Assembly (NCBI GenBank): GCA_002722735.1
Contig: PBMR01000011.1
Coordinates: 1-38,206 of the forward strand
Length of the DNA stretch: 38,206 nt
DNA from: Methanobacteriota archaeon
Lineage (GTDB): Archaea; Thermoplasmatota; Poseidoniia; Poseidoniales; Thalassarchaeaceae
Reading direction: 5' to 3'
In this document: positions 24,327 to 37,660 of the stretch, piece by piece
Layout: each line of letters starts with the position of its first letter
How positions within the stretch are numbered: the stretch's first letter is position 1
Program-made: the position numbers and the translations under genes
The notes under the pieces: model-generated
The model's input: only the letters and a program-made list of their open reading frames with translations
The model's database searches: none
What the model was told of the DNA's origin: nothing

Positions 24327-25610
24327 ATGGTGGGTTTCCCCAGTATCATGCAAGGAGGTTCTCAGACAAACGAAACAGGCCCTCAGGGCATCCTAAAGTC
24401 GTTTGCCAGCCCCGCGACCCTACCTCACTTTCTGCTCCTGATGGCCAATACGGGATTCCTCTACGTGATAATGAAAGCAGATTGGGGGGGTTTAGCGGCT
24501 GTCGGAAGCTCTGTGTTCCTCTCTCTCACCGTCGCATACTGCTTCGCAGCTATTTTGGCCCCTAGTCGGCTAGGGAACAAACTGTTTCGCGTCGACGATG
24601 ATGGCAGGGGCGTTCTCAATTCCTCCTATTGGTTGAGCAGCCTTCTGACACTCTTGCCCATTGGGATTACGGTAGCCCTGGTATTTGCAACAGTCTTGAC
24701 TCAACTCGAGGCGGAGAGGTTGACATTAATCGCCTACCTAATGGCATCCATATTTATCCTCATGTCCATTGGACAAGCGCTCTCGCTGACTTTCGGTAGC
24801 ATTGCTTATGCATCGAAGAAATCCGCCTCTGCCCGACCTAGCAGGATGGGGGTCACCTACACTGTCACGAGGACTGTCTTTTCAGTGGCTGTATTCGTCC
24901 CCCTAGTTTGGTGGTTCGGATACGGAGCCGGTGACCTCTCTGATCAGAGTTTGGTATCACATGCCACGTGGATGGGTTTCCTAGCAGTGGTCGGGCTTGT
25001 GACTGTGGTTGCGGACAGATACACGAATAGAGCGAGATCTGCGGGCGGGATGGATGGCTTGGCTGCCGACAGACTGATGGTGGTGATTGTTCTAGCCATA
25101 TGCTGGCACCTGCTCAGTGCATGGAGGAGGAATCCACTGTGGGTTAATTCGGCTACTGGATCGATGCTGGTCGAGGAGGGAATACTAATGGCCGTTACAA
25201 TTTTGCTAGCCGTTTGGAGCATGGCCAACCGTGGCCACAAAAAGGGATGGAGGATTTTTCAAGGGCAATCCGCAGTTTTCTGGGGCATTGGATTCGGCTA
25301 TGCCTATGGGGGCAGTATCGCCTCCTTGACTGCCCTCTCAGAAGGGAGTCTCCTCACAACGACCGCGGGGGGGCATCTCCTGACGGCTGTGGTGATGCTA
25401 GCAATACTGCCGTTGGCGATTTCGAGGATTGGAAACCCCACGAGCGAAGAGCTGGAAACTGGTATCGATATTTCTAGTGATTTCGAGAGTCCCGAGGTGT
25501 CTCCCATTCCACAAACTTCGGCTTTGACCAGCATGAATGAAAGAAGAGATGCCGAAGATGGGGGGTCGTTGGAATCTGATTGGGAGGACGTCGTCGAACT
25601 TGTCGACTAA
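24327..25610 (+). CDS. Polytopic membrane protein, unknown function
   Basis: The 427-residue protein has about nine or ten hydrophobic segments between residues 35 and 365, with a soluble acidic tail of about 60 residues that is rich in Ser, Glu and Asp and probably disordered. I see no transporter signature, cofactor motif or catalytic residues. The loops are short, and one cytoplasmic-looking loop is basic (KKSASARPSRMG). Two starts are possible, ATG 24327 and ATG 24348. A TTTACC block near 24314 is better placed for the second, while the first gives the longer frame. The 3' end overlaps the convergent ftsZ gene by four bases. Confidence 0.72.
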   Translation: MVGFPSIMQGGSQTNETGPQGILKSFASPATLPHFLLLMANTGFLYVIMKADWGGLAAVGSSVFLSLTVAYCFAAILAPSRLGNKLFRVDDDGRGVLNSSYWLSSLLTLLPIGITVALVFATVLTQLEAERLTLIAYLMASIFILMSIGQALSLTFGSIAYASKKSASARPSRMGVTYTVTRTVFSVAVFVPLVWWFGYGAGDLSDQSLVSHATWMGFLAVVGLVTVVADRYTNRARSAGGMDGLAADRLMVVIVLAICWHLLSAWRRNPLWVNSATGSMLVEEGILMAVTILLAVWSMANRGHKKGWRIFQGQSAVFWGIGFGYAYGGSIASLTALSEGSLLTTTAGGHLLTAVVMLAILPLAISRIGNPTSEELETGIDISSDFESPEVSPIPQTSALTSMNERRDAEDGGSLESDWEDVVELVD

Positions 25611-26512
25611 AGGCCGCTTACGACGGCAACCAGCCTTAGCCTCCCTACCATGTCATCGCTCGCCCTAGCACCTAGAATGACCTGGCAGTCCTCATCTAGG
25701 GACGAGACAAATGCCTCAGAGATCAAATTGAGGTGGGCGAGGGTCATGTCAGGCCCGCCTTCTATCTGTATGAGGCATCCCTTCGCCCCTTCAACCTCGA
25801 TTTCCGATAGCGGGGAGTTCCTTGCCATGCTGACCACCCCCATGGGGTTTTCAGAAGATCCAGTCCCCACAATCAAAGTGGCGTTGCCAGGCCTGTCAAT
25901 GACAGTCCGTAGATCCATCAGATCAAGATTCATCTTTCCGACCTTAGCAAGAGTGGTCACTAGTCCCTCAATGAGCTCTCCAATCCATTCCGAACCCAAT
26001 TTCCAGTCAGAATTCCTGTGCCTAGCCTGCCAAGCTAACCGCTCCAAGCTGACTCGGATGCATAGGTGAGAGTTGCGTTCTATTTCAGGGAGGGCCCGCC
26101 CGGCAATGGCACACCTCAAGGGCTGCTCTGCGAACGGCAGGCCCACGACGCTCAGTACCAAACTTCCGGCCTCCCTTGCTCTGGCTGCTAACTCAGCAGC
26201 AGCCCCTGATCCGGTACCCCCTCCAAGGGCAGTAAGGAAGACCACCAACTCTGACCTTGCCAGGAGATGCGAAATGTTCCCGAGCCCATCCTTTAGCCTG
26301 TGGGCAGCCAAGTTGGGCAGTGCTGCTGTCCCCTTGCCGTCTCCTGTCGCGTCAAGATGTAGGCAATGAGCTTCCTGAGCAGAGGAGAATGAGGACTCGT
26401 CGGCATCAATCAGAAGCAGGTCTGCTAACTGCGGACACCTATGATGGGCTCGCTCGGACCACCCGCAGCCAACACCACCCACCCCCACGATGAGGATTGC
26501 GCCTTCGTCCAT
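25607..26512 (-). CDS. ftsZ: Divergent FtsZ/tubulin-superfamily GTPase
   Basis: The protein has 301 residues; FtsZ polymerises at midcell with GTP. Visible motifs are the N-terminal VGVGGVG turn (9-15), the tubulin signature GGGTGSG (97-103), VGLPFAEQ (family T-x-PF), and the T7 synergy loop NLDLMD (195-200). Its aspartate activates GTP hydrolysis across the subunit interface. Both nucleotide binding and catalysis therefore look intact. The sequence is otherwise divergent and shorter than typical archaeal FtsZ1 or FtsZ2 (about 360-400). There is no C-terminal tail with the usual FtsZ partner-binding peptide. It could be the division FtsZ of this lineage or a specialised paralogue. A box A about 26 bases upstream suggests its own leaderless promoter. 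Confidence 0.8.
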   Translation of the reverse strand: MDEGAILIVGVGGVGCGWSERAHHRCPQLADLLLIDADESSFSSAQEAHCLHLDATGDGKGTAALPNLAAHRLKDGLGNISHLLARSELVVFLTALGGGTGSGAAAELAARAREAGSLVLSVVGLPFAEQPLRCAIAGRALPEIERNSHLCIRVSLERLAWQARHRNSDWKLGSEWIGELIEGLVTTLAKVGKMNLDLMDLRTVIDRPGNATLIVGTGSSENPMGVVSMARNSPLSEIEVEGAKGCLIQIEGGPDMTLAHLNLISEAFVSSLDEDCQVILGARASDDMVGRLRLVAVVSGL

Positions 26513-26853: not shown

Positions 26854-26916
26854 GCACCAGCCTCGACGGCCTCATGTTTGAGGCTTATTCAATAGGAGTA
26901 TTGCAATGGGAAATGC

Positions 26917-26933
26917 CGGCCCCTGAGGGGCCG
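26917..26933. promoter_or_regulatory. Perfect palindrome next to the respiratory operon promoter
   Basis: CGGCCCC-TGA-GGGGCCG is a perfect seven-pair inverted repeat with a three-base spacer. It lies between the divergent TPR gene and the box A at 26943-26950. Position and symmetry suit a repressor or activator site. As RNA it could form a hairpin only if transcription began further upstream. Confidence 0.5.
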
Positions 26934-26942
26934 AGGTGGAAC

Positions 26943-26950
26943 GTTAATAT
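26943..26950 (+). promoter_or_regulatory. Box A promoter of the Rieske/cytochrome b operon
   Basis: GTTAATAT lies about 45 bases before the ATG at 26991. This gives a leader of about 20 bases that contains a GGGGG-type ribosome binding site. It begins ten bases after the palindrome. Confidence 0.5.
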
Positions 26951-26990
26951 CCCCCTTTTTCGTGGACGAGGCAGTCTCAAGGGGGCTAGC

Positions 26991-27806
26991 ATGAGTCGAT
27001 TCGTGATATCCCTGCAGAAGGCCCTCATTCTGAGTGTCGTCATCGTGTTGTTATCCGGAACCGGCCAAGGCCTGCACTCCGGCATAGGTGGTGATGCCAA
27101 TGGCGAGGGAGATGTTTCCTTGTCTGGCTGCACCTGCCACTCCGGCCAACCAGACAATTCTGTCACAATCATACTCGATGGGGTCCCATACCACTACGAA
27201 TCCGAACACGTGTACGAACTGAGGATTCAACTCGTTGGGGGGCCTGAAATCGACACCACCTCGCAAACCGGTGGTTTCGCAATGACGATCAGCTCGGGAA
27301 CCCTAGGGCCTGGGGCGGGGTCCGAGGGACTCGTTCAGAATTGGAATGATGATCCGGCTAGACTGACACATACGGACTCTGGATCCAATACGGCAGATAG
27401 AACTTGGGTGGTCTCTTGGACTAGCCCGACGGAAGGAAGCGGTGCAGTCACCTTCTGGTTGGTCGGCAACGCTGTCAATGGTGATTTGGCGCCATCCGAT
27501 CTCGATAGGTGGAATAGGCTGACCACCACCGTAGACGAGGGTTCCGACGATGGCAGGGTCAGGACCGTCTTCTCGGGCAACGGGGACATCGAGCCCCCCG
27601 CACCGACCGAAGGCCACGTCGATATCCACCTCATGGGGGCCGAGCTCTTGGCGCACTGGCTTGGTCTGCTTGGTTTCGTCTCCGTATTCCTCGTGATTAT
27701 CTTCTGCGGCTTCTTCCTCAGGTATGGTTTCTCCCGCCATTATGAGGGTAGAAGCAACCTTCTCAGACTGAGGATCAAACACCTTCGAAGAGGTGACCAA
27801 ACATGA
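26991..27806 (+). CDS. Reeler-like (choice-of-anchor V) exported protein, C-terminally anchored
   Basis: The 271-residue protein has a signal peptide (about 1-28), a beta-sandwich domain resembling the Reeler / choice-of-anchor V family (40-205), and a membrane anchor (about 228-253) with a basic cytosolic tail. The family's N-terminal cysteine motif appears as SGCTCHSG (C47, C49, H50); it is C-x-C-H and not the CxxCH of c-type cytochromes. The start at 26991 is preferred over a longer frame because a ribosome binding site precedes it and the signal peptide follows. It is the first gene of the respiratory operon and overlaps the next by four bases. It may bind a metal or partner on the outer face of the complex. 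Heme attachment is not supported. Confidence 0.78.
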   Translation: MSRFVISLQKALILSVVIVLLSGTGQGLHSGIGGDANGEGDVSLSGCTCHSGQPDNSVTIILDGVPYHYESEHVYELRIQLVGGPEIDTTSQTGGFAMTISSGTLGPGAGSEGLVQNWNDDPARLTHTDSGSNTADRTWVVSWTSPTEGSGAVTFWLVGNAVNGDLAPSDLDRWNRLTTTVDEGSDDGRVRTVFSGNGDIEPPAPTEGHVDIHLMGAELLAHWLGLLGFVSVFLVIIFCGFFLRYGFSRHYEGRSNLLRLRIKHLRRGDQT

Positions 27807-28252
27807 AGGATGACGTCGTGATGCGTCTCCTCAGAGAGGTCAGGTCTGGAAGAGTAAGTGTCGATGATGCCAGAAGAGCACTCGAGGATGTGGCACTGTC
27901 CGAGGATTCGTATGCCGCGGCTACTGACCACGGCGTGTTCAACGAACCGAGGCCGGGTACCATCGTACGGGCTAGCATCTCGCCTGCTGGGGATTCCTGG
28001 CTGATTATCATCGTCGCCCTGTGGGGATTGCTCTGGACGCTGTATTGGGCCGGCGCCCTTTCTTATGGCCTGTTCAATCACTGGGACCAGCAGCTCCTCT
28101 CATTCAATCTGGCAATGACCCTTCTAACAGTGATAATTATGGGAATTGTCTACCTGAAGTACGTTCTTCCCGACGTGTTGGTCGTCAAGCACCGTAGGAA
28201 CAAGTTCATCACCCAGAACGACCCAGAAGGCTGGAAGGATTACGAGGTGTGA
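27803..28252 (+). CDS. Two-span membrane protein of the Rieske/cytochrome b operon
   Basis: The 149-residue protein has an N-terminal cytosolic helix region (MRLLREVRSGRVSVDDARR) that looks like a SHOCT- or short helical docking motif. Membrane segments lie at about 66-87 and 103-124, followed by a basic C-terminal tail. It overlaps the genes on both sides by four bases, so it is almost certainly made in fixed ratio with them. It lacks heme- or cluster-binding residues. It is probably an assembly or accessory subunit of the complex. I do not recognise a named family. Confidence 0.75.
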   Translation: MKDDVVMRLLREVRSGRVSVDDARRALEDVALSEDSYAAATDHGVFNEPRPGTIVRASISPAGDSWLIIIVALWGLLWTLYWAGALSYGLFNHWDQQLLSFNLAMTLLTVIIMGIVYLKYVLPDVLVVKHRRNKFITQNDPEGWKDYEV

Positions 28253-29103
28253 TTTTGGCAAGGAGATTCAGACTGCGTTCTCTGTCTAGCGGGGATGGCG
28301 GATACCACGAGACCGCGGGTGGAATCAATCGCAGGGACTTCATGCGATTGTCATTCAATACCGCGGCCGGACTTATCACAATGGCTAGTCTTGGGAGCGT
28401 GGGCTTCGCATCATTCCTGATGGGGCAGTCCAGTTCGGGTGGCTCGGACAGCGCCATCATCTTCTACGCCCCCAAGGGTGCTGATGTTTGGTACAACAGC
28501 ATGGATAGGCAGCCCATGTCCCTTCAGTCATTCGTTGATGAGGCTGCTAATTCGGAAACGGGAATTTCTGCTGCAGCCGGACTGTGGTCCGGGCTTCCCG
28601 TGGTGGCCATCTACGTCCCCCATCAGGAGAACTCGAACAAGCCCCTTGCTGGGAATGTGCCTAGGTTCCAGTTTCACGACGGCTACACCTCAAGCGGTGC
28701 CTACGTCGGATCAGGCTACGAGATTGATGAAAAGGAGGAGTACGCCTCGTTGGCAATCCACGATAACATGGTTATCTTCTTCTCGAGGTGTCCACACCTA
28801 TGCTGCATACCTGGCTGGCAGTTGGTCAGCAATGACTTCACAGCCGACGACTGGATGCCGGGGGGGACAGACTCGGGAGGCAGCAAGTTGTTCTGCATTT
28901 GCCATTCAAGCCGGTTCGACCCCACTGTCATCGAGAAGAACCGGAGCCGTAACAGATCCAGTGGGGCTGAGTTTGACTACATCGGAATTAAGAGGACTGG
29001 GGGGCCAGCCCCGGTTGGAATGCCATTGATTCCATTCGTTGTTAACGGGGACAATATCGAAGCTTTGCCCGACTTCAAAGACTGGTACACTTACTGTGCA
29101 TGA
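28249..29103 (+). CDS. Rieske [2Fe-2S] protein with Tat-type N-terminus
   Basis: The protein has 284 residues from a GTG start. A twin-arginine motif NRRDFMRLSF (27-36) and hydrophobic stretch (37-60) would anchor it with the cluster domain outside. Box I is CPHLCC (181-186) and box II CICHSS (216-221). Aligned with the canonical CTHLGC and CPCHGS, the ligands C181, H183, C216 and H219 and the disulfide pair C186-C218 are present. The glycine of box I is Cys185 and the glycine of box II is Ser220, while the cluster-tuning Ser221 is kept. It transfers electrons from quinol oxidised at the Qo site to an external acceptor that is not encoded here. It lies directly before the cytochrome b gene. 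Confidence 0.93.
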   Translation: MILARRFRLRSLSSGDGGYHETAGGINRRDFMRLSFNTAAGLITMASLGSVGFASFLMGQSSSGGSDSAIIFYAPKGADVWYNSMDRQPMSLQSFVDEAANSETGISAAAGLWSGLPVVAIYVPHQENSNKPLAGNVPRFQFHDGYTSSGAYVGSGYEIDEKEEYASLAIHDNMVIFFSRCPHLCCIPGWQLVSNDFTADDWMPGGTDSGGSKLFCICHSSRFDPTVIEKNRSRNRSSGAEFDYIGIKRTGGPAPVGMPLIPFVVNGDNIEALPDFKDWYTYCA

Positions 29104-29112
29104 GGTGAGAAT

Positions 29113-29985
29113 GTGATTCAGTTCTGGTTCCTCTGGCTTTTCATTGCCATAGTCGTGGTAATCGTGGCCTTCACCCTCAGACGGGAGCCGGACGACATGC
29201 CTCGAAAGGACATCTTGAGGGCTGTCGAGACCAATGCAGGCAGCATGGGGCTCGCGGAGAAGAGCTTCCTTTGGGCATTCTCCTGGCTTGATACCCGCTT
29301 CAGGATTCAGGACTATTGGGGCATGAGCAGGGATGCATACCACAGTGTGCACAGGCAGATGCCACTCACTCACGCTGAGAAGTACAAGCTACGTATCATC
29401 TGGTACTGGTACCCCCTGTACTGCCTCGGTGGCATTTCTTTCCTCGCCTTCATCATCCTCGTCATTTCAGGCACCATTCTCGGCTTCTACTACGTTCCCG
29501 GTGGGGACCTGAGCTCAGATCCGACCCCTGCCTACGCATCGATGGAATTCATCATGGTAGAACTTCCCTTCGGCTACATAATCCGTTCCATTCATCACTG
29601 GACCACGCACTTCATGGTGGCCTCGGTTTTCCTACATATGTGCAGGGTGTACTTCACCGGGGCGTACCGAAATCCAAGGGAGCTGAACTGGCTGATTGGA
29701 GTGGCCCTCATGTTCTTCACCATATTCTTCGGTTACTCCGGTTATCTCCTCCCATGGGATAGCCTTGCATTCGGAGCGGCCACCATAGGTATCAACATGG
29801 CCAACTCCACGCCACTGATTGGAGATTGGGCGTCAGCCCTGCTATTCGGAGGCACCGAGCTTACTGGACAGACCGTCATTCGAATGTACTTCCTGCACGT
29901 GTTCGTCCTACCTGTCATCGTGACTGCGCTGATTCTAGCCCACCTGTTCATCGTTTGGGTCCAAGGGATAGCGGAGCCGCATTGA
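29113..29985 (+). CDS. Cytochrome b N-terminal half, b6-type
   Basis: The protein has 290 residues from a GTG start. After an extra N-terminal membrane segment (3-21) and a cytosolic stretch, four cytochrome b helices follow. Heme ligands are His161 and His175 (13 residues between) and His262 and His277 (14 between). The longer second spacing is the b6f-type diagnostic; mitochondrial-type cytochrome b has 13 in both. Other marks are SIHHWTTHFMVASVFLHM, RVYFTGAYRNPRELNW and GYLLPWDS (family PWDQ). The chain ends after the fourth helix as in cytochrome b6, and the rest is encoded in the next gene. The extra first helix is unusual for the family. Confidence 0.95.
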   Translation: MIQFWFLWLFIAIVVVIVAFTLRREPDDMPRKDILRAVETNAGSMGLAEKSFLWAFSWLDTRFRIQDYWGMSRDAYHSVHRQMPLTHAEKYKLRIIWYWYPLYCLGGISFLAFIILVISGTILGFYYVPGGDLSSDPTPAYASMEFIMVELPFGYIIRSIHHWTTHFMVASVFLHMCRVYFTGAYRNPRELNWLIGVALMFFTIFFGYSGYLLPWDSLAFGAATIGINMANSTPLIGDWASALLFGGTELTGQTVIRMYFLHVFVLPVIVTALILAHLFIVWVQGIAEPH

Positions 29986-29993
29986 GGGATTTC

Positions 29994-32807
29994 ATGGGAA
30001 TACTCGAGAGGTTCGGCAGGATCGCTGACACATACATTACTGAGAAGGAGCGGCTGATTGAGGCGGAAGAGGAACGCACTAGGGTCTTCGTCGGGCACTC
30101 GTTATGGCCGACTGAGGTGCTGAGGGACTCCATCGTTTTCGCGGCCATATTGATGGTGATTGCGTTCTATTCGTGGATTATCCCCCCACCCCTCCACAAT
30201 GCTGCCGATCCATATGCACAGGCCGGTTTCGTATTCCCCGACTGGTACGTCCTTTTCTCCTACGGATACCTCAGATGGGGCGAGTACCTCCCACAGTTCA
30301 CCATTCCCGCCGGCCCCATAGGGGACTTCTTTGGCTCCCCGGTGATCTCTTGGAACGCCGCTTGGTGGGGATCACTCATCACTGGCATTCCCGTAGGCCT
30401 GCTCGCACTTCCGCCCTTCATAATCGGCAAGAAGGAGAAAAGGGGCGTGGAAGACCCGTGGTTCGCCACTGCTGGTGCCGTGTACCTAGCTCACGTCTGG
30501 TTCATCTCGGTATTCTCTATCAACATCTTCCTCGAACTCTATTCGAAAAACAGAAGTGATTACTGCTGGGCAGGATCTCATGGCAATTTCATGTGCGGTA
30601 CTCAACCGCCTTGGACTGCCGAAGTGTTCAATGCCGTTCCCTGGGTGCTCACTGGGATATTCGTCTTCGCCCTCCTGTATTTCTGGATCAGGAGCTTCCT
30701 GCTGGGCCCATTGGGTGCTAGGCTGACCCCCTTGCTCGGCAGGCAGGTAGCCGTGGGCTCGCTGATAGGTGCTGTTCTGCTTTGTACCGTAACCTGGCCA
30801 GTCTACGAAAACGGCTTCTGGGACCAAAGGGGACTGGGAACGATGGGTTTCTGGGAATATCAAGCCGAGGATAATTTGGATGAGCTGGACGGCATGAGGG
30901 GTCAGCCCACTGACACCCTAGTGCTCTACGAGCACGGCAACGCGTGGGCGGAATGGGGGGATGAGTGCCTTCCATACTATGCGACCAGCCAATTGTCAGT
31001 GTGGGAGGATGTCCATGGGAGCGGGGAATCCTCGGATTGGTGTGTGATTCCCGCAGTTCATTGGCTTGATTGGGGGGTCTACCAACCAACCAAAGCCACG
31101 ATTATCGACTTTGGTGATATCAATGGTCATGCCGATTCTCAGACATCAAGGAATTTCGGCGGCGCAGCGTTCAACTACACGGGGCCAAGTGACGGCAGCC
31201 CCATTGAAATCACCGAGACGCACACATTCAACGTCGAAGATCTCGGAGTCACTAGGGTCCCTGCGGATATAGGATGCAGCTTCAGGACCACGGCTAGGGG
31301 AGTGGGGTCTCATTTCCAGAGCGTGTCCCTAACTGACTCTGCAGACCAGACCCTCTGGGAGAACGAGGGGGGGGTCTGTGATTCCACAACGATGTATTTG
31401 GATTCAGGCCAGACCTACACAATCACATTCGTAACCTCCTCGTCGGAAGTTGACGAGGCTGTGACGATGATTGCTGGTTTCTCCGCTATCGCCTACCAAC
31501 CACTGCTTCTCAATGAGGACGGAACGGTGCTGGTACGAGCTGATGGCACTCATGATGCCAATGCATTGGCAACGATGTCCATTGCCAATCCCACCTTCCA
31601 CAAGAATCCGAAGAGCCTCGATGCCAAACTCATCTACTCCCTATTCATACCCTGCCTAGGCGTTGGGGCAGTGGTTTTCATGCTGATGCGGAGCATGGCT
31701 AGGGGATATGAATGGGAGATGAACAAGTGCTACGGATGCGACCTCTGCGATGACGCTTGTCCAATCCGGCTATTCAATGCAGGAGACAAGCTCAACATAA
31801 TCTACAACACGTGGAACAATGAGGATGATGGAGTTCCGTTGTTCTCCTGCTTGACATGCTCCGCTTGTACCAACGCCTGTCCCCAATTGGTGGACTACGA
31901 CTCTTACGTTGACCTCAGGCGCAACCTGATTGTAGGGGGGCCCCCCGCCACTGAGATTCCCCATACCGTTCTTCAAGCAGTATTAGCCGCTGAGGCAGAT
32001 GAGGATGCTGACGAGGTGTTCATCTCGGTTGAGGACTATCAAATCGACTCCAGCGTGGGCTACTACCCCGGGTGCGTTGGCTATCTGGATCAGGAGATGG
32101 TCTTCAGCGATGCAAATGAGGGCACCATGAATCTGAGTGAGACGACAACAGCAGCCTTCACGCTATTCGAGGAAATTGGGGAGGAAGTCACCTATCTGGG
32201 GAGGGATTTCCTCAAATGCTGCGGGCACGACCAGAAGTGGCAGGGCATGACCGAAGTCTTCGAGAAGCTGAAGGCCTACAACCAGAAGAAGCTGGGGCAA
32301 AGCGGAATCGATACCTTGGTGACCTCATGCGCTGAGTGTCTCCGCACTTTCGCCCTGGACTATGAACTGGAGGACATGAAGGTCATGCATACAACGGAGT
32401 TCTTGCTCGAGAATGGCTTTGAAACGCAACTGCAGACCAGAGATGACCTCACGGTGACATTCCACGACCCGTGCCGTCTGGGTCGGCAGATGAACATCTA
32501 TGACGAGCCTAGGAGCCTTGTCAATTCTGTGGAGGGCGTCAACCTCGTCGAGATGGAGCACCATGGCGAGGATGGACTTTGTTGCGGAGTCTCTGGAATG
32601 ATGGCGTGCAACGAGAACAGCAGGGCCCTCAGAATTCAGCGATTCGATGAAGTCGTGGCTACGGGGGCAGAGATGATGCTGACATCCTGCCCCAAGTGCG
32701 TCAGTCATTTCGAGTGCCTGAAGTTCGAAGGCGACCCTAGGTACGACTTCGAAATACTCGACGTAGTCAGCTTCCTCGCCCGACAGATCGAGGAAACCAA
32801 GAAGTGA
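29994..32807 (+). CDS. Fusion: cytochrome b C-terminal half + external domain + HdrD-like iron-sulfur module
   Basis: The protein has 938 residues from the ATG at 29994; a longer frame overlaps cytochrome b. Residues 35-270 correspond to cytochrome b subunit IV-like helices and include PDWY (82-85), the Qo-site equivalent of PEWY. Residues about 275-540 form a beta-rich domain that should face outward. A further membrane helix (about 545-568) returns to the cytosol. Residues 575-938 match HdrD/GlpC-type proteins. Two CxxCxxCxxxCP sites begin at C579 and C619 for [4Fe-4S] clusters, and two complete CCG domains have CCG at 742-744 and 863-865, each followed by a CxxC (SCAEC, SCPKC). CCG domains can hold the noncubane cluster that splits disulfides in HdrB/HdrD. 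The frame is continuous across all parts. Confidence 0.93.
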   Translation: MGILERFGRIADTYITEKERLIEAEEERTRVFVGHSLWPTEVLRDSIVFAAILMVIAFYSWIIPPPLHNAADPYAQAGFVFPDWYVLFSYGYLRWGEYLPQFTIPAGPIGDFFGSPVISWNAAWWGSLITGIPVGLLALPPFIIGKKEKRGVEDPWFATAGAVYLAHVWFISVFSINIFLELYSKNRSDYCWAGSHGNFMCGTQPPWTAEVFNAVPWVLTGIFVFALLYFWIRSFLLGPLGARLTPLLGRQVAVGSLIGAVLLCTVTWPVYENGFWDQRGLGTMGFWEYQAEDNLDELDGMRGQPTDTLVLYEHGNAWAEWGDECLPYYATSQLSVWEDVHGSGESSDWCVIPAVHWLDWGVYQPTKATIIDFGDINGHADSQTSRNFGGAAFNYTGPSDGSPIEITETHTFNVEDLGVTRVPADIGCSFRTTARGVGSHFQSVSLTDSADQTLWENEGGVCDSTTMYLDSGQTYTITFVTSSSEVDEAVTMIAGFSAIAYQPLLLNEDGTVLVRADGTHDANALATMSIANPTFHKNPKSLDAKLIYSLFIPCLGVGAVVFMLMRSMARGYEWEMNKCYGCDLCDDACPIRLFNAGDKLNIIYNTWNNEDDGVPLFSCLTCSACTNACPQLVDYDSYVDLRRNLIVGGPPATEIPHTVLQAVLAAEADEDADEVFISVEDYQIDSSVGYYPGCVGYLDQEMVFSDANEGTMNLSETTTAAFTLFEEIGEEVTYLGRDFLKCCGHDQKWQGMTEVFEKLKAYNQKKLGQSGIDTLVTSCAECLRTFALDYELEDMKVMHTTEFLLENGFETQLQTRDDLTVTFHDPCRLGRQMNIYDEPRSLVNSVEGVNLVEMEHHGEDGLCCGVSGMMACNENSRALRIQRFDEVVATGAEMMLTSCPKCVSHFECLKFEGDPRYDFEILDVVSFLARQIEETKK

Positions 32808-33147: not shown

Positions 33148-33480
33148 ATGGCAGAGATTCCTGACCTAGAAGCGAGGAGAGTGGCTGAGCAGGCCAGGAT
33201 TAGGATGCTTCTGAATTCGAAGCGAACAGAGGAGAGAGCCGGCATCAAAGGGGGTATAGACACCGTTGCTTGGGTCGAGGTGGGGCTCTGCATTGGTTGC
33301 GACCAATGCACAATTGTCTGCGATGACGATGCCATAGAGCTGTACGACACCCCTCTCGAGAGTCGAATAATGAGCGTGGAAGTCAACAAGAAGGCGAGGA
33401 TCCTGCGTGAGCCGTGCACAGGGTGCAAGCTCTGTGTTCTGGCCTGCCCGACCGATGCCATAGTGATGATAGACAGGTGA
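33148..33480 (+). CDS. Dicluster ferredoxin, two [4Fe-4S]
   Basis: The 110-residue soluble protein has a helical charged N-terminus (1-40) and two canonical four-cysteine motifs: CIGCDQCTIVC and CTGCKLCVLACP. The second cysteine-proline is present in the second motif; the first ends in Cys-Asp. The arrangement is that of 8Fe ferredoxins in which each motif donates its fourth cysteine to the other cluster. The leading GGGGGAG before the ATG is a ribosome binding site. It is the first of three tightly spaced genes. Its closeness to the HdrD-like fusion makes it a candidate electron partner, which is inference. Confidence 0.92.
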   Translation: MAEIPDLEARRVAEQARIRMLLNSKRTEERAGIKGGIDTVAWVEVGLCIGCDQCTIVCDDDAIELYDTPLESRIMSVEVNKKARILREPCTGCKLCVLACPTDAIVMIDR

Positions 33481-33484
33481 GGAA

Positions 33485-33766
33485 ATGGAAGAGGATGATC
33501 CAGTTAGATTCGGTGCAGAATTCGGCCCCATGAGGACTAAGTCGTCCAGCGGCGTCTCCCTGTCCACGTTCAAGACACTGGTATGGGTCTCCAACCTCGG
33601 AGGGCTCTTGCTATTCGTAATCGGCCTTGAACTGATGGTGGTCAAGCAGTCCTTCGCATTCGGACTGGCATGCATCGTGGCCGGCGTGGCAATTGCCCTA
33701 TTCCCGTCAAACTACGAAATCATCGGGATGGAAGAACAGGGAAAAGAGGGCGGCAATGAGGGGTGA
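33485..33766 (+). CDS. Small two-span membrane protein
   Basis: The 93-residue protein has a polar N-terminus and hydrophobic segments at about 35-54 and 58-77, joined by a very short loop to form a hairpin. The C-terminal tail is acidic and glycine-rich. It begins four bases after the ferredoxin stop and overlaps the alkyltransferase gene by eleven bases, so the three are co-transcribed. No family is recognised. Confidence 0.6.
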   Translation: MEEDDPVRFGAEFGPMRTKSSSGVSLSTFKTLVWVSNLGGLLLFVIGLELMVVKQSFAFGLACIVAGVAIALFPSNYEIIGMEEQGKEGGNEG

Positions 33767-34043
33767 GGAAATCGAACTCAAGGGAACCGAATTCCAAATA
33801 AAGGTCTGGATGGAACTGATGAAGATTCCCACTGGTGAGACTAGGTCATACAAGGAGGTGGCTGAGGCTATCGGGCACCCGAATTCCTCGAGGGCGGTTG
33901 CCAATGCCTGTGCAAGCAACCCTCATCCAGTTATCATTCCCTGCCACAGAGTGATTCGTTCGGATGGGGGATTGGGCGGGTACAGCGGAGGGGGCGGTAT
34001 GGAGACGAAACTCGGGCTCCTGAATAGTGAAGGGGAATCCTAG
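33756..34043 (+). CDS. ogt: O6-alkylguanine-DNA alkyltransferase, catalytic domain only
   Basis: The 95-residue protein removes O6-alkyl groups from guanine by transfer to its own cysteine, consuming one protein per repair. It shows the family blocks GTEFQIKVWMELMKIPTGET, then RAVANACASNPHPVIIPCHR (active-site Cys in PCHRV) and GGLGGYSGGGGMETKLGLL. Only the C-terminal catalytic domain is present; many bacterial and eukaryotic relatives have an extra N-terminal domain. The ATG at 33756 was chosen because a longer frame reads into the preceding gene in another phase. It is also possible that the protein is an alkyltransferase-like protein, but the Cys argues for activity. Confidence 0.92.
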   Translation: MRGEEIELKGTEFQIKVWMELMKIPTGETRSYKEVAEAIGHPNSSRAVANACASNPHPVIIPCHRVIRSDGGLGGYSGGGGMETKLGLLNSEGES

Positions 34044-35615: not shown

Positions 35616-36107
35616 ATGGCCTTAGCGACCGGTCTTTCCTTCCTCTCTACTAGGGAAGCGGAAGTCGTGAAATGCGCAGGTGAAGCACTGCTTGGAGTAC
35701 CTAGAAAGGAACTGGGGGATGATTTCGTAGCTGCGTTCGACAGGGTAGCTGCAGGCCTAGAGGACTTTCTACGCTCCGACCTGCACAAACTCATGCTCCT
35801 GTTGAATGTCGTTACCCTCGGACGATTCACACGGATGGAAGTCTCGCGGCGCGAGAGGCTACTCACTGGATGGGGGCACAGTAGAATGCCCCTTCTACGA
35901 ACGAGCTTCGTCACTCTGCGGGCCCTCTGCGGCTGGTCCTGGTACTCACTGAGGAAATCATGGCCCGAACTCGAATTTCCAGGGGAGACCATCGGCAGAG
36001 AGCATGAACTCCCAACTCTACTGTTCGGCAAGAGCCCGTGGACACCTCCTGGTTCGAAACCAGATGCCAGGCTACCATGGTTAACCCCTGAGGAGAAGAT
36101 CGGGTGA
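35616..36107 (+). CDS. Small partner subunit of GMC oxidoreductase
   Basis: The protein has 163 residues from the ATG at 35616. Helical segments with FLSTREAEVVKCAGEALLG near the N-terminus and RRERLLTGWGHSRMPLLR and FVTLRALCGWSWYSL in the second half resemble the small subunit or N-terminal domain that accompanies fatty-alcohol-oxidase and gluconate-dehydrogenase-type GMC enzymes. The stop overlaps the GTG start of the GMC gene by four bases. In plant and yeast fatty alcohol oxidases a comparable stretch is fused to the enzyme; here it is separate. Its exact role (assembly, membrane contact or electron exit) is not visible. Confidence 0.75.
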   Translation: MALATGLSFLSTREAEVVKCAGEALLGVPRKELGDDFVAAFDRVAAGLEDFLRSDLHKLMLLLNVVTLGRFTRMEVSRRERLLTGWGHSRMPLLRTSFVTLRALCGWSWYSLRKSWPELEFPGETIGREHELPTLLFGKSPWTPPGSKPDARLPWLTPEEKIG

Positions 36108-37660
36108 TCCTGACTCCCGGGGAAATCACCTCCACCCGTTGGGAGGTTGATATCTGCATTATAGGAAGTGGGGCCGGAGGGGCGATTGCCGCTGCCAAGA
36201 TAGCGTCCAGTGGGCAGCGGGTTCTGCTTCTAGAGGAAGGAAGCAAGGTCCAGCAAGGGGACTTGAATCAGGATGCGGCCCGTTTGGTGCCTCTGATGTA
36301 TCGCCGAGCAGGGGGGCTTGGCACCGATGACATGTCTATTCGCATCTTGCAAGGAAAGGTGTTGGGCGGGTCTTGCACGATCAACTGGATGACCTGCCTG
36401 CGCACACCCGACATGGTTCTCGACGAATGGGGCGACCGATTCGGACTCGAGGAGTACCGCCCGGGGGAAATGACGCCTCACTTCGAAGCTGTCGAGCAAC
36501 GCCTCTCTGTCCACACGATTCCTGAGGAGAATCACAATCCGCAGAATAGAATCATCCTCGATGGTGCAAGGGAATTAGGAGTGCATGCCGAGGCATCAGC
36601 CAACAACTCCGTCGACTGCATTGGCTGTGGCACTTGTGGGCTTGGCTGCCCTTACGATGCGAAACAGGACATGCGACTCACATACCTGGCTGATGCTCAG
36701 GCCCACGGCACAACGATACTCACTGGGGTTCGGGCCGAGAGGATTCACAGTCTCTCCCCAAGCCAGCAACGAGTAGAGGCCACGATACTTGGCGAGGGGA
36801 ATGGTGCTATCGAACGGAGGCTGGAGGTGGCCTGCACGAAGGTTGTGGTTGCAGCTAGCGCCATTGGGACCCCCCTAATATTGCAACGCTCCCGACTGAA
36901 TGGCTCCAGATTGCTGGGCAAATTCCTGCACCTGCACCCAGTGACGGCCACCATAGGGGTCTACGATGAAATCCTCGACCCGACCTACGGAATCCCGCAA
37001 TCAACTGTCTGCGAGCACTACTCGAACCTGGATGGGAAGGGGTACGGCTTCTGGCTCGAGGTTCCCGACATCGAGCCATTCCTCGCAGGTGTGAACTTTC
37101 CTGGATTGGGGCGTAGCAGGCGAGACGGGATGCGCAATATGCGACGAATGGGGATGATTATCACGCTTGTTCGCGATGGAGCCGACAAGAGATCCAATGG
37201 CGAGGTTCGCTGGCGGCGTGGGCTGAACACACAGAGCGGCCATCTCTCGATATCGAAGGTTCCGTCCATCCGATACCGACTCTCGCCTACCGATAAGGAA
37301 CACCTCCAACAGGGAATGGAGGCGTCCATCGCCTTCCACTTCGCAGCTGGTGCGCGTGAGGTAATGACCATGCACAATCAGCATCAGACGCTGACCTCTC
37401 CCGGTCAGATTCCGCCACTACGCAGGCTTGCTTCTGGTCCGAACCAACTCTCGATGTTCAGCGCCCATCCGACAGGCACAGCCCGAATGGGAAAGGATAG
37501 GCGCTTGAGCGTGGTCGATGAAACGATGCAAATGCACCACCATCCTGGCATCTATGTGATGGACGGCAGCACATTGCCGACCGCTCCGGGAGTAAACCCG
37601 ATGATCACCATACTTGCGACCGTATCCAGGGCCCTCGAGCTCGGTGACCTTGTCAGTTGA
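36104..37660 (+). CDS. GMC-family FAD oxidoreductase with four-cysteine motif
   Basis: The 518-residue protein starts with GTG at 36104. Residues 18-45 hold the FAD-binding GSGAGGAIAAAKIASSG and following LEEG. GGSCTINWMTCLRTP is the flavin-near GMC block. The C-terminal part has HPTGTARMG with the catalytic histidine, and GIYVMDGSTLPTAPGVNP plus an MITILATVSRALE helix, as in fatty alcohol oxidases and related dehydrogenases. Cysteines C172, C175, C178 and C182 form CIGCGTCGLGC followed by Pro. A similar Cys-rich patch occurs in long-chain alcohol oxidases, but here the spacing equals a ferredoxin [4Fe-4S] site. The likely reaction is oxidation of an alcohol; the substrate and electron acceptor are unknown. 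Confidence 0.93.
   Translation: MILTPGEITSTRWEVDICIIGSGAGGAIAAAKIASSGQRVLLLEEGSKVQQGDLNQDAARLVPLMYRRAGGLGTDDMSIRILQGKVLGGSCTINWMTCLRTPDMVLDEWGDRFGLEEYRPGEMTPHFEAVEQRLSVHTIPEENHNPQNRIILDGARELGVHAEASANNSVDCIGCGTCGLGCPYDAKQDMRLTYLADAQAHGTTILTGVRAERIHSLSPSQQRVEATILGEGNGAIERRLEVACTKVVVAASAIGTPLILQRSRLNGSRLLGKFLHLHPVTATIGVYDEILDPTYGIPQSTVCEHYSNLDGKGYGFWLEVPDIEPFLAGVNFPGLGRSRRDGMRNMRRMGMIITLVRDGADKRSNGEVRWRRGLNTQSGHLSISKVPSIRYRLSPTDKEHLQQGMEASIAFHFAAGAREVMTMHNQHQTLTSPGQIPPLRRLASGPNQLSMFSAHPTGTARMGKDRRLSVVDETMQMHHHPGIYVMDGSTLPTAPGVNPMITILATVSRALELGDLVS

Follow-up and report, generated by a model that had tools for sequence, protein, structure and literature searches.

Known relatives and the fused gene

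In Angelarchaeales, members of the Thermoplasmata, hdrD-like and rnfB-like genes lie near those of a cytochrome b complex (complex III). From these neighbours the available text of PMC9038741 proposes, in one sentence, that ferredoxin electrons enter at complex III, and this entry point has thus been put forward before; cluster ligands, distribution and heme ci are not taken up in that text. Here we describe a gene in which the module is not proximal to complex III, as in Angelarchaeales, but fused to its subunit IV. The gene lies in a stretch of 38,206 nucleotides (contig PBMR01000011.1, assembly GCA_002722735.1; hereafter the window) from an archaeon of the Thalassarchaeaceae, order Poseidoniales. 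It encodes a subunit IV that continues, in the same polypeptide, into two [4Fe-4S] motifs and a pair of CCG domains like those of HdrD, a heterodisulfide reductase (Hdr) protein.

How does this architecture compare with other described systems? The anammox complexes Kuste4569-4574 and Kustd1480-1485 have, in the passages of PMC12954380 at hand, a b6f-like cytochrome b and subunit IV with extra helices, as well as an iron-sulfur module on the negative side (n-side) of the membrane, for which a non-canonical low-potential branch was proposed. They differ in having multiheme cytochromes c and a putative NAD(P) reductase in a subunit of its own, whereas the complex studied here carries a CCG module on subunit IV and has no CxxCH cytochrome in its operon. 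The window protein has neither a FAD nor a NAD domain that Pfam recognises; in one other lineage (f25, below) the neighbouring protein is HdrA-like. Mycobacterial EtfD (9ojn) unites, according to the part of PMC13083937 consulted, a membrane heme domain, two [4Fe-4S] clusters and two CCG domains in one chain with quinone as acceptor. The initial annotation's statement that a separate cytochrome is the usual partner of CCG modules is to be read with this caveat. Unlike the fusion protein, which has subunit IV as its membrane part and retains all ten CCG cysteines, EtfD binds heme in a membrane domain of its own and has Thr539, in place of a D1 cysteine, and His583.

HdrD (of HdrDE) and HdrB/HdrC share with the fusion two [4Fe-4S] motifs and two five-cysteine CCG sites, and HdrB (5odc_B) is matched in fold at 7.1e-7; they differ in that the fusion is joined to subunit IV of complex III and scores above the cut-off of no NCBIfam model. 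There was no sign of a heterodisulfide substrate for the fusion, and no further search for one was made. HdrD as treated in the accessible portion of PMC4153887 concerns Methanomassiliicoccales. Marine Group II (MGII) archaea, as characterised in the sections of PMC6336850 available, have cytochrome b and a Rieske protein without a canonical bc1 complex, and RnfB without the rest of Rnf (RnfACDEG); they belong to the same group as the archaeon of the window, and these sections do not mention a fusion. In the open-licence literature of PubMed Central, the scope of our search (subscription papers and preprints lay outside it), a subunit IV-CCG fusion was not found. As far as searched, what is new is therefore the covalent joining of the module to subunit IV, the conservation of this fusion throughout the order, its junction, the ligand comparison and the pattern of partners.

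A covalent extension of subunit IV across Poseidoniales

The initial annotation had read the gene as a single uninterrupted frame combining subunit IV and its PDWY motif with two [4Fe-4S] motifs and two CCG domains. This is borne out by an open reading frame (ORF) of 937 residues (see Table) with PDWY at residue 82 (nt 30237), CxxCxxCx3C at 579 and 619, and CCG at 742 and 863. Pfam recognises CCG (9.9e-22, two stretches) and Fer4_9 (1.1e-7); up to an E value of 0.01, no Pfam family matches the cytochrome part. This part is recognised as subunit IV through its homologues: it shares 33% identity over 171 residues (3e-20) with an unfused subunit IV of 233 residues, which itself matches PF00032 Cytochrom_B_C (9.6e-11), and a seven-sequence profile of the fusion family finds PDB chains of b6f subunit IV (7.1e-5). 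The whole protein has six transmembrane-like segments, and its AlphaFold model, weak in the membrane and iron-sulfur parts, predicts beta structure with confidence for residues 301-510 (predicted local distance difference test, pLDDT, of 75-92 per block after the first block), in agreement with the external domain and return helix noted earlier. Foldseek matched p24 GOLD domains (1.4e-4, 109 columns; the output gives no ranges), a match that we assign, by size and fold, to the predicted ectodomain.

Could the frame be a chimera, produced when a cytochrome gene and an hdrD gene were wrongly joined in assembly? We searched 194 genomes of the class, 173 in families f1 and f2 and 21 in family f3; we infer from kinship and the named loci that f1 and f2 represent the two families of Poseidoniales, and f3 Marine Group III. 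Counted among the matches listed, at least 126 of the 173 f1 and f2 genomes contain a single stop-free alignment from residue 1 to 933-937, and 15 more hold the match in one open frame of 921-963 residues. One genome (G025), a single contig of 2,064,136 bases, carries the whole gene. A contig scan yielded 459 relatives, the best 80 of which form our named loci: 71 contain the whole fusion, at the Poseidoniales-type length of 915-967 residues and under titles that name Poseidoniales groups or only Euryarchaeota or Thermoplasmata, and the remaining nine start at a contig end. Four of the named loci (L166, L203, L227 and L234) stem from isolates AH-273-F07, AG-404-A19, AH-287-P07 and AH-287-M04, are not titled as metagenome-assembled genomes and, going by the isolate names, look like single-cell genomes. 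The 18 cluster cysteines (eight cubane, ten CCG) are invariant in 72 aligned sequences. What speaks for a chimera is that four genomes show a frame break within the gene, near residues 355 (G057), 440 (G014), 540 (G001) and 640 (G095). Since no two breaks coincide and the gene is intact in most genomes, we take the breaks, without proof, as single sequence errors. With the unbroken gene in so many independent genomes, apparent single-cell genomes included, and the fusion present in two further families, the chance of a chimera is practically nil and we reject it. The fused gene is real, and not the product of the assembly join for which the initial annotation had asked to check. At one locus near a contig end (L311 1-3060, from G193) the iron-sulfur part is partly duplicated, giving a 1020-residue frame with four [4Fe-4S] motifs. 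When plasmid records were searched by tblastn, 62 matched and none covered 80% of the query; among the 25 matches listed, only residues 556-936 were covered.

The initial annotation had suggested looking for the same domain order in other Thermoplasmatota. Searches of the phylum drew 292 and 389 genomes, and what follows holds among the matches listed. Families f22 (G232, 789 residues) and f25 (G240, 606 residues; the copy in G245 is cut) encode a fusion without the ectodomain. In all six f3 loci that were read, one gene encodes subunit IV with the two [4Fe-4S] motifs, and the gene after it encodes the CCG pair. Subunit IV is unfused in seven examined families (f4, f15, f21, f23, f31, f32 and f39); more distant cytochrome b matches (f6, f27, f35 and others) were left out of this comparison. 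The unfused proteins end in the tail YExxLNxxYYxVR, with variants VFKLNRNYYRVR in f23 and YENKLSxxY(Y/F)xIR in f32 and f39, and fused forms continue at the matching tail as YExx(M/L)NxCxxC. The fusion point is thus conserved, as unfused tails stop just where fused forms go on.

A tree was built from 21 hand-picked rows and has long branches for f31, f25 and f22; five loci (L074, L077, L080, L158 and L161) that were cut or near-copies, most Poseidoniales and L306 were left out. L306 (f53) has a PEWY-type complex with CxxCH proteins. The tree requires two changes, yet a single clade of fused forms is not rejected (p-AU 0.216, approximately unbiased test), so that two separate origins of the fusion cannot be claimed as proven. 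In f21, the unfused subunit IV (L157 5000-6733) has a large insertion in the same region with no detectable homology to the window ectodomain. In f22 (L072 10089-11975) and f25 (L073 788-3610), a long extracytoplasmic stretch stands ahead of the N-terminal half of cytochrome b in the same frame, of Big_5 Ig-like type in L072.

A proposed electron port and its rivals

What kind of complex does the fusion belong to? Its cytochrome b is split, as in b6f, into a four-helix b6 protein and a subunit IV with the P(D/E)WY motif of the Qo site, and a Rieske gene stands in the operon; no CxxCH protein or cytochrome c family match was found there. The four genes upstream of the fusion, for the choice-of-anchor V, DUF7318-like and Rieske proteins and the N-terminal half of cytochrome b, are in place in 62 of 62 testable loci. 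The window cytochrome b has histidine spacings of 14 and 15 and, in YCLGG, the cysteine that by its motif would bind heme ci as in b6f-type complexes. This cysteine recurs in all 68 and all 63 Poseidoniales-type loci of two sets (overlapping in species) where the pattern was found, as well as in f22, f25 and both loci of f3 genus g22; in six unfused families the position holds Ser, Thr or Ala. The search pattern demanded GG after the position, so that odd variants could escape it; unfused cases were read directly. The cysteine suits an n-side port, but is no proof of one.

Like HdrD, the module itself contains five cysteines in each CCG domain; this holds for f22, f25 and all 72 Poseidoniales-type rows. 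Its family scores fall short of any such protein, lying far below the NCBIfam cut-offs for TfrB, DsrK and HdrC (best TfrB, 111.7 bits against 385; HdrC, 17.2 against 160). The best solved relative is EtfD (profile 2.4e-35, Foldseek 2.0e-11). In EtfD, as reported in the passages seen of PMC13083937, D1 binds a linear [3Fe-4S] cluster with Thr539 in place of an Hdr cysteine, D2 has a noncubane cluster completed by His583, and the protein is characterised as a wire. At the corresponding two positions the window protein carries C743 and E781; it hence has a full Hdr-type set and is not EtfD, whose own heme domain is replaced by subunit IV. The genome of the window also encodes, as a separate gene, an EtfD-like paralogue that carries CSGD and CPHC; most relatives searched have matching frames of about its length (residues were not checked in these). 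In f3, 18 of 18 CCG genes (17 of 21 genomes) have lost one D1 cysteine, 14 with CS for CC and four in CxxC, and keep D2 intact; one L264 residue in this count is ambiguous and a G065 fragment was dropped. Whatever function the class has in common is thus unlikely to depend on both Hdr sites being intact.

The fusion gene occurs together with genes for the Rieske protein, the N-terminal half of cytochrome b and an RnfB-like ferredoxin. In 62 of 63 testable loci (the miss is L169) an RnfB-like gene is found close to the fusion. Around the 71 complete loci we found 68 matches, 32 on the same strand and 36 on the opposite one, at 32-2217 bp from the fusion. All 39 Poseidoniales-type genomes surveyed have the gene at 1.7e-33 or better, and 20 of 21 f3 genomes have weaker matches (59 of 60 overall), which in at least two (G050 and G058) may be other ferredoxins. 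In f22, the gene after the fusion encodes a polyferredoxin with four motifs whose score attains the RnfB cut-off (68.7 bits). The following gene in f3 combines a zinc-ferredoxin-like domain (NF041165 5.6e-18, 65.6 bits, below the cut-off of 280) with an RnfB-like dicluster (55.8 bits, below 68.7), and in f25 an HdrA-like protein with an FlpD/MvhD domain directly follows (L075 757-2289; PF02662 1.4e-17, above cut-off). Module-bearing lineages thus have a ferredoxin-type partner nearby, whether RnfB-like, ferredoxin plus RnfB-like, or HdrA/FlpD-like. Around unfused complexes, nine stretches of 7.7-13 kb (L155-L160 and L303-L305) gave no RnfB-like gene by tblastn.

As the likeliest reading we propose, and give an even chance to, an n-side electron port by which ferredoxin would feed the Qn side of a b6f-type Rieske/cytochrome b complex. 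The module would be sited in the cytosol: six transmembrane-like segments place it there if the PDWY loop is on the positive side (p-side), as would be expected by homology with subunit IV. Ferredoxin reduced by 2-oxoacid:ferredoxin oxidoreductases would dock at the RnfB-like protein, and electrons would travel by way of the CCG clusters, both cubane clusters and heme ci/bN, and reduce quinone at the Qn site. The resulting quinol would be oxidised at Qo in a normal Q cycle, toward a terminal oxidase, with the CCG domains acting as a wire like EtfD and not as a disulfide reductase. The metabolic setting is consistent with this. POR_N occurs in 48 of 60 class genomes, among them all 39 of Poseidoniales type, so that reduced ferredoxin is probably made. 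NuoF occurs in three of 60, so that most of these genomes lack an NADH entry to complex I; complex I of MGII is, by contrast, termed canonical in the available part of PMC6336850. How aerobic thermoacidophilic archaea re-oxidise ferredoxin was stated to be open in 2010, according to the excerpt of PMC2946596 consulted.

Poseidoniales-type archaea are common in the ocean. If the proposal is right, an order-wide covalent port would be a concrete answer to ferredoxin re-oxidation in aerobic archaea, and complex III would be a respiratory entry point and more than a middle step. It would also offer a natural analogue of the ferredoxin-to-heme-ci route of chloroplast b6f, which is debated.

Several observations count against the port. 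All four loci read of f3 genus g23 have Ser at the heme ci position and carry the module, while f31 has the cysteine and an unfused subunit IV; a strict coupling of cysteine and module is accordingly rejected. The seven cysteine-less unfused rows form one clade, so that the link may reflect a single historical event. Poseidoniales, f22 and f25 retain the full set of ten CCG cysteines, although fewer would do for an EtfD-like wire. The RnfB-like gene is about 14 kb away from the fusion in G025 and G030, and no RnfB-like match was found near the f25 fusion. Complex I without NuoF could already accept ferredoxin electrons. The iron-sulfur region of the AlphaFold model (block pLDDT 28-42) is too poor for cluster-to-heme distances.

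Might electrons flow the other way? Quinol would then be bifurcated at Qo, and the low-potential electron would leave the b hemes through the iron-sulfur module and, with the help of proton-motive force, reduce a cytosolic ferredoxin or flavoprotein, as proposed for anammox NAD(P)H. The anammox Rieske/cytochrome b complexes, with their n-side iron-sulfur/flavin module and five-helix subunit IV (in the portion seen of PMC12954380), and the HdrA/FlpD-like protein behind the f25 fusion argue for such a flow. We nevertheless consider it doubtful: Poseidoniales are described as aerobic heterotrophs in the text available of PMC6336850 and have genes of the 2-oxoacid:ferredoxin oxidoreductase type, hence should require an outlet for ferredoxin electrons, not a supply, and no flavoprotein gene stands beside the fusion in the window operon. 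Unlikely, though conceivable, is the more general reading that the low-potential branch of the Q cycle is hard-wired to an Hdr-type catalytic module, one complex thereby linking quinol oxidation and proton-motive force with low-potential reactions of ferredoxin, flavin or disulfides in the cytosol, forwards and backwards. The fused complex may have an electron-bifurcating role.

Disulfide chemistry was the interpretation put forward in the initial annotation: the CCG pair would be a true Hdr-type site, coupling a cytosolic disulfide to the quinone pool in either direction. The complete cysteine sets and E781 in place of the EtfD-type His are in its favour. Set against these are the loss of a D1 cysteine throughout f3, the low TfrB, DsrK and HdrC scores, nearby partners of ferredoxin or HdrA type, the lack of any indicated thiol substrate, and EtfD as evidence that pure-wire modules exist (as far as PMC13083937 was available). 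We regard this reading as quite unlikely; from that interpretation we retain the single-polypeptide link between a Rieske/cytochrome b unit and an HdrD-like module in the cytosol, and give up thiol-disulfide exchange as its leading purpose. A flavoprotein dehydrogenase or electron-transfer flavoprotein (ETF) could instead feed the module, as in EtfD, GlpC, GlcF and LutA, and EtfD is after all its closest solved relative by sequence and fold. The EtfD-like paralogue, which does carry the EtfD residues, is however encoded separately in the same genome, and no dehydrogenase gene lies directly beside the fusion in the window (a GMC oxidoreductase is encoded at 36104-37660), which makes a flavoprotein donor very unlikely.

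Genes of the operon and its surroundings

Table. Parts of the fusion gene and neighbouring operon genes in the window.
Feature	Position	Strand	Details
Choice-of-anchor V protein with CxCH, at the place of cytochrome c1/f	26874..27806	+	NCBIfam NF041895 7.7e-23, above cut-off
Small membrane protein, DUF7318-like	27803..28252	+	PF24002 2.8e-5, 24.6 bits, below cut-off 27
Rieske iron-sulfur protein (CPHLCC ... CICHSS)	28249..29103	+	TIGR01416 3.8e-9, 36.8 bits, below cut-off 97.4
Cytochrome b N-terminal four-helix half, b6 type	29113..29985	+	PF00033 4.6e-41
Fusion gene (whole ORF)	29994..32807	+	ATG start, 937 residues; subunit IV, membrane hairpin/ectodomain, 2[4Fe-4S], 2 CCG
Membrane part, subunit IV	29994..30809	+	residues 1-272; PDWY at 82, five transmembrane-like segments
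Extracytoplasmic part, mostly beta	30816..31613	+	residues 275-540; AlphaFold model
Last transmembrane helix and YEWEMN junction	31614..31709	+	residues 541-572; unfused subunit IV stops at the matching tail
Two [4Fe-4S] motifs	31710..31913	+	residues 573-640
CCG domain D1	32049..32348	+	C694 C742 C743 C779 C782
CCG domain D2	32451..32714	+	C827 C863 C864 C899 C902
RnfB-like 2[4Fe-4S] ferredoxin, proposed partner	33148..33480	+	TIGR01944 1.6e-10, 40.9 bits, below cut-off 68.7

Pfam gave no match for the Rieske protein, though its motif is intact. The CxCH of the choice-of-anchor V protein is invariant in 63 aligned proteins (62 of them picked by a C-x(1-6)-CH pattern) and also present in f4, f21 and f3 (L155, L157 and L162). 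It is one residue shorter than the c-type heme motif. Judging by this motif, the protein may hold an unusual heme or metal site and accept electrons from the Rieske protein.

An FtsZ-like protein is encoded near the operon at 25607-26512 (TIGR00065 3.6e-36, below cut-off), and a similar gene is present in 56 of 63 loci. Downstream of the RnfB-like gene, a frame with an MGMT-type DNA repair domain (33693-34043; PF01035 2.1e-32) overlaps the end of the frame of a small membrane protein (33485-33766).

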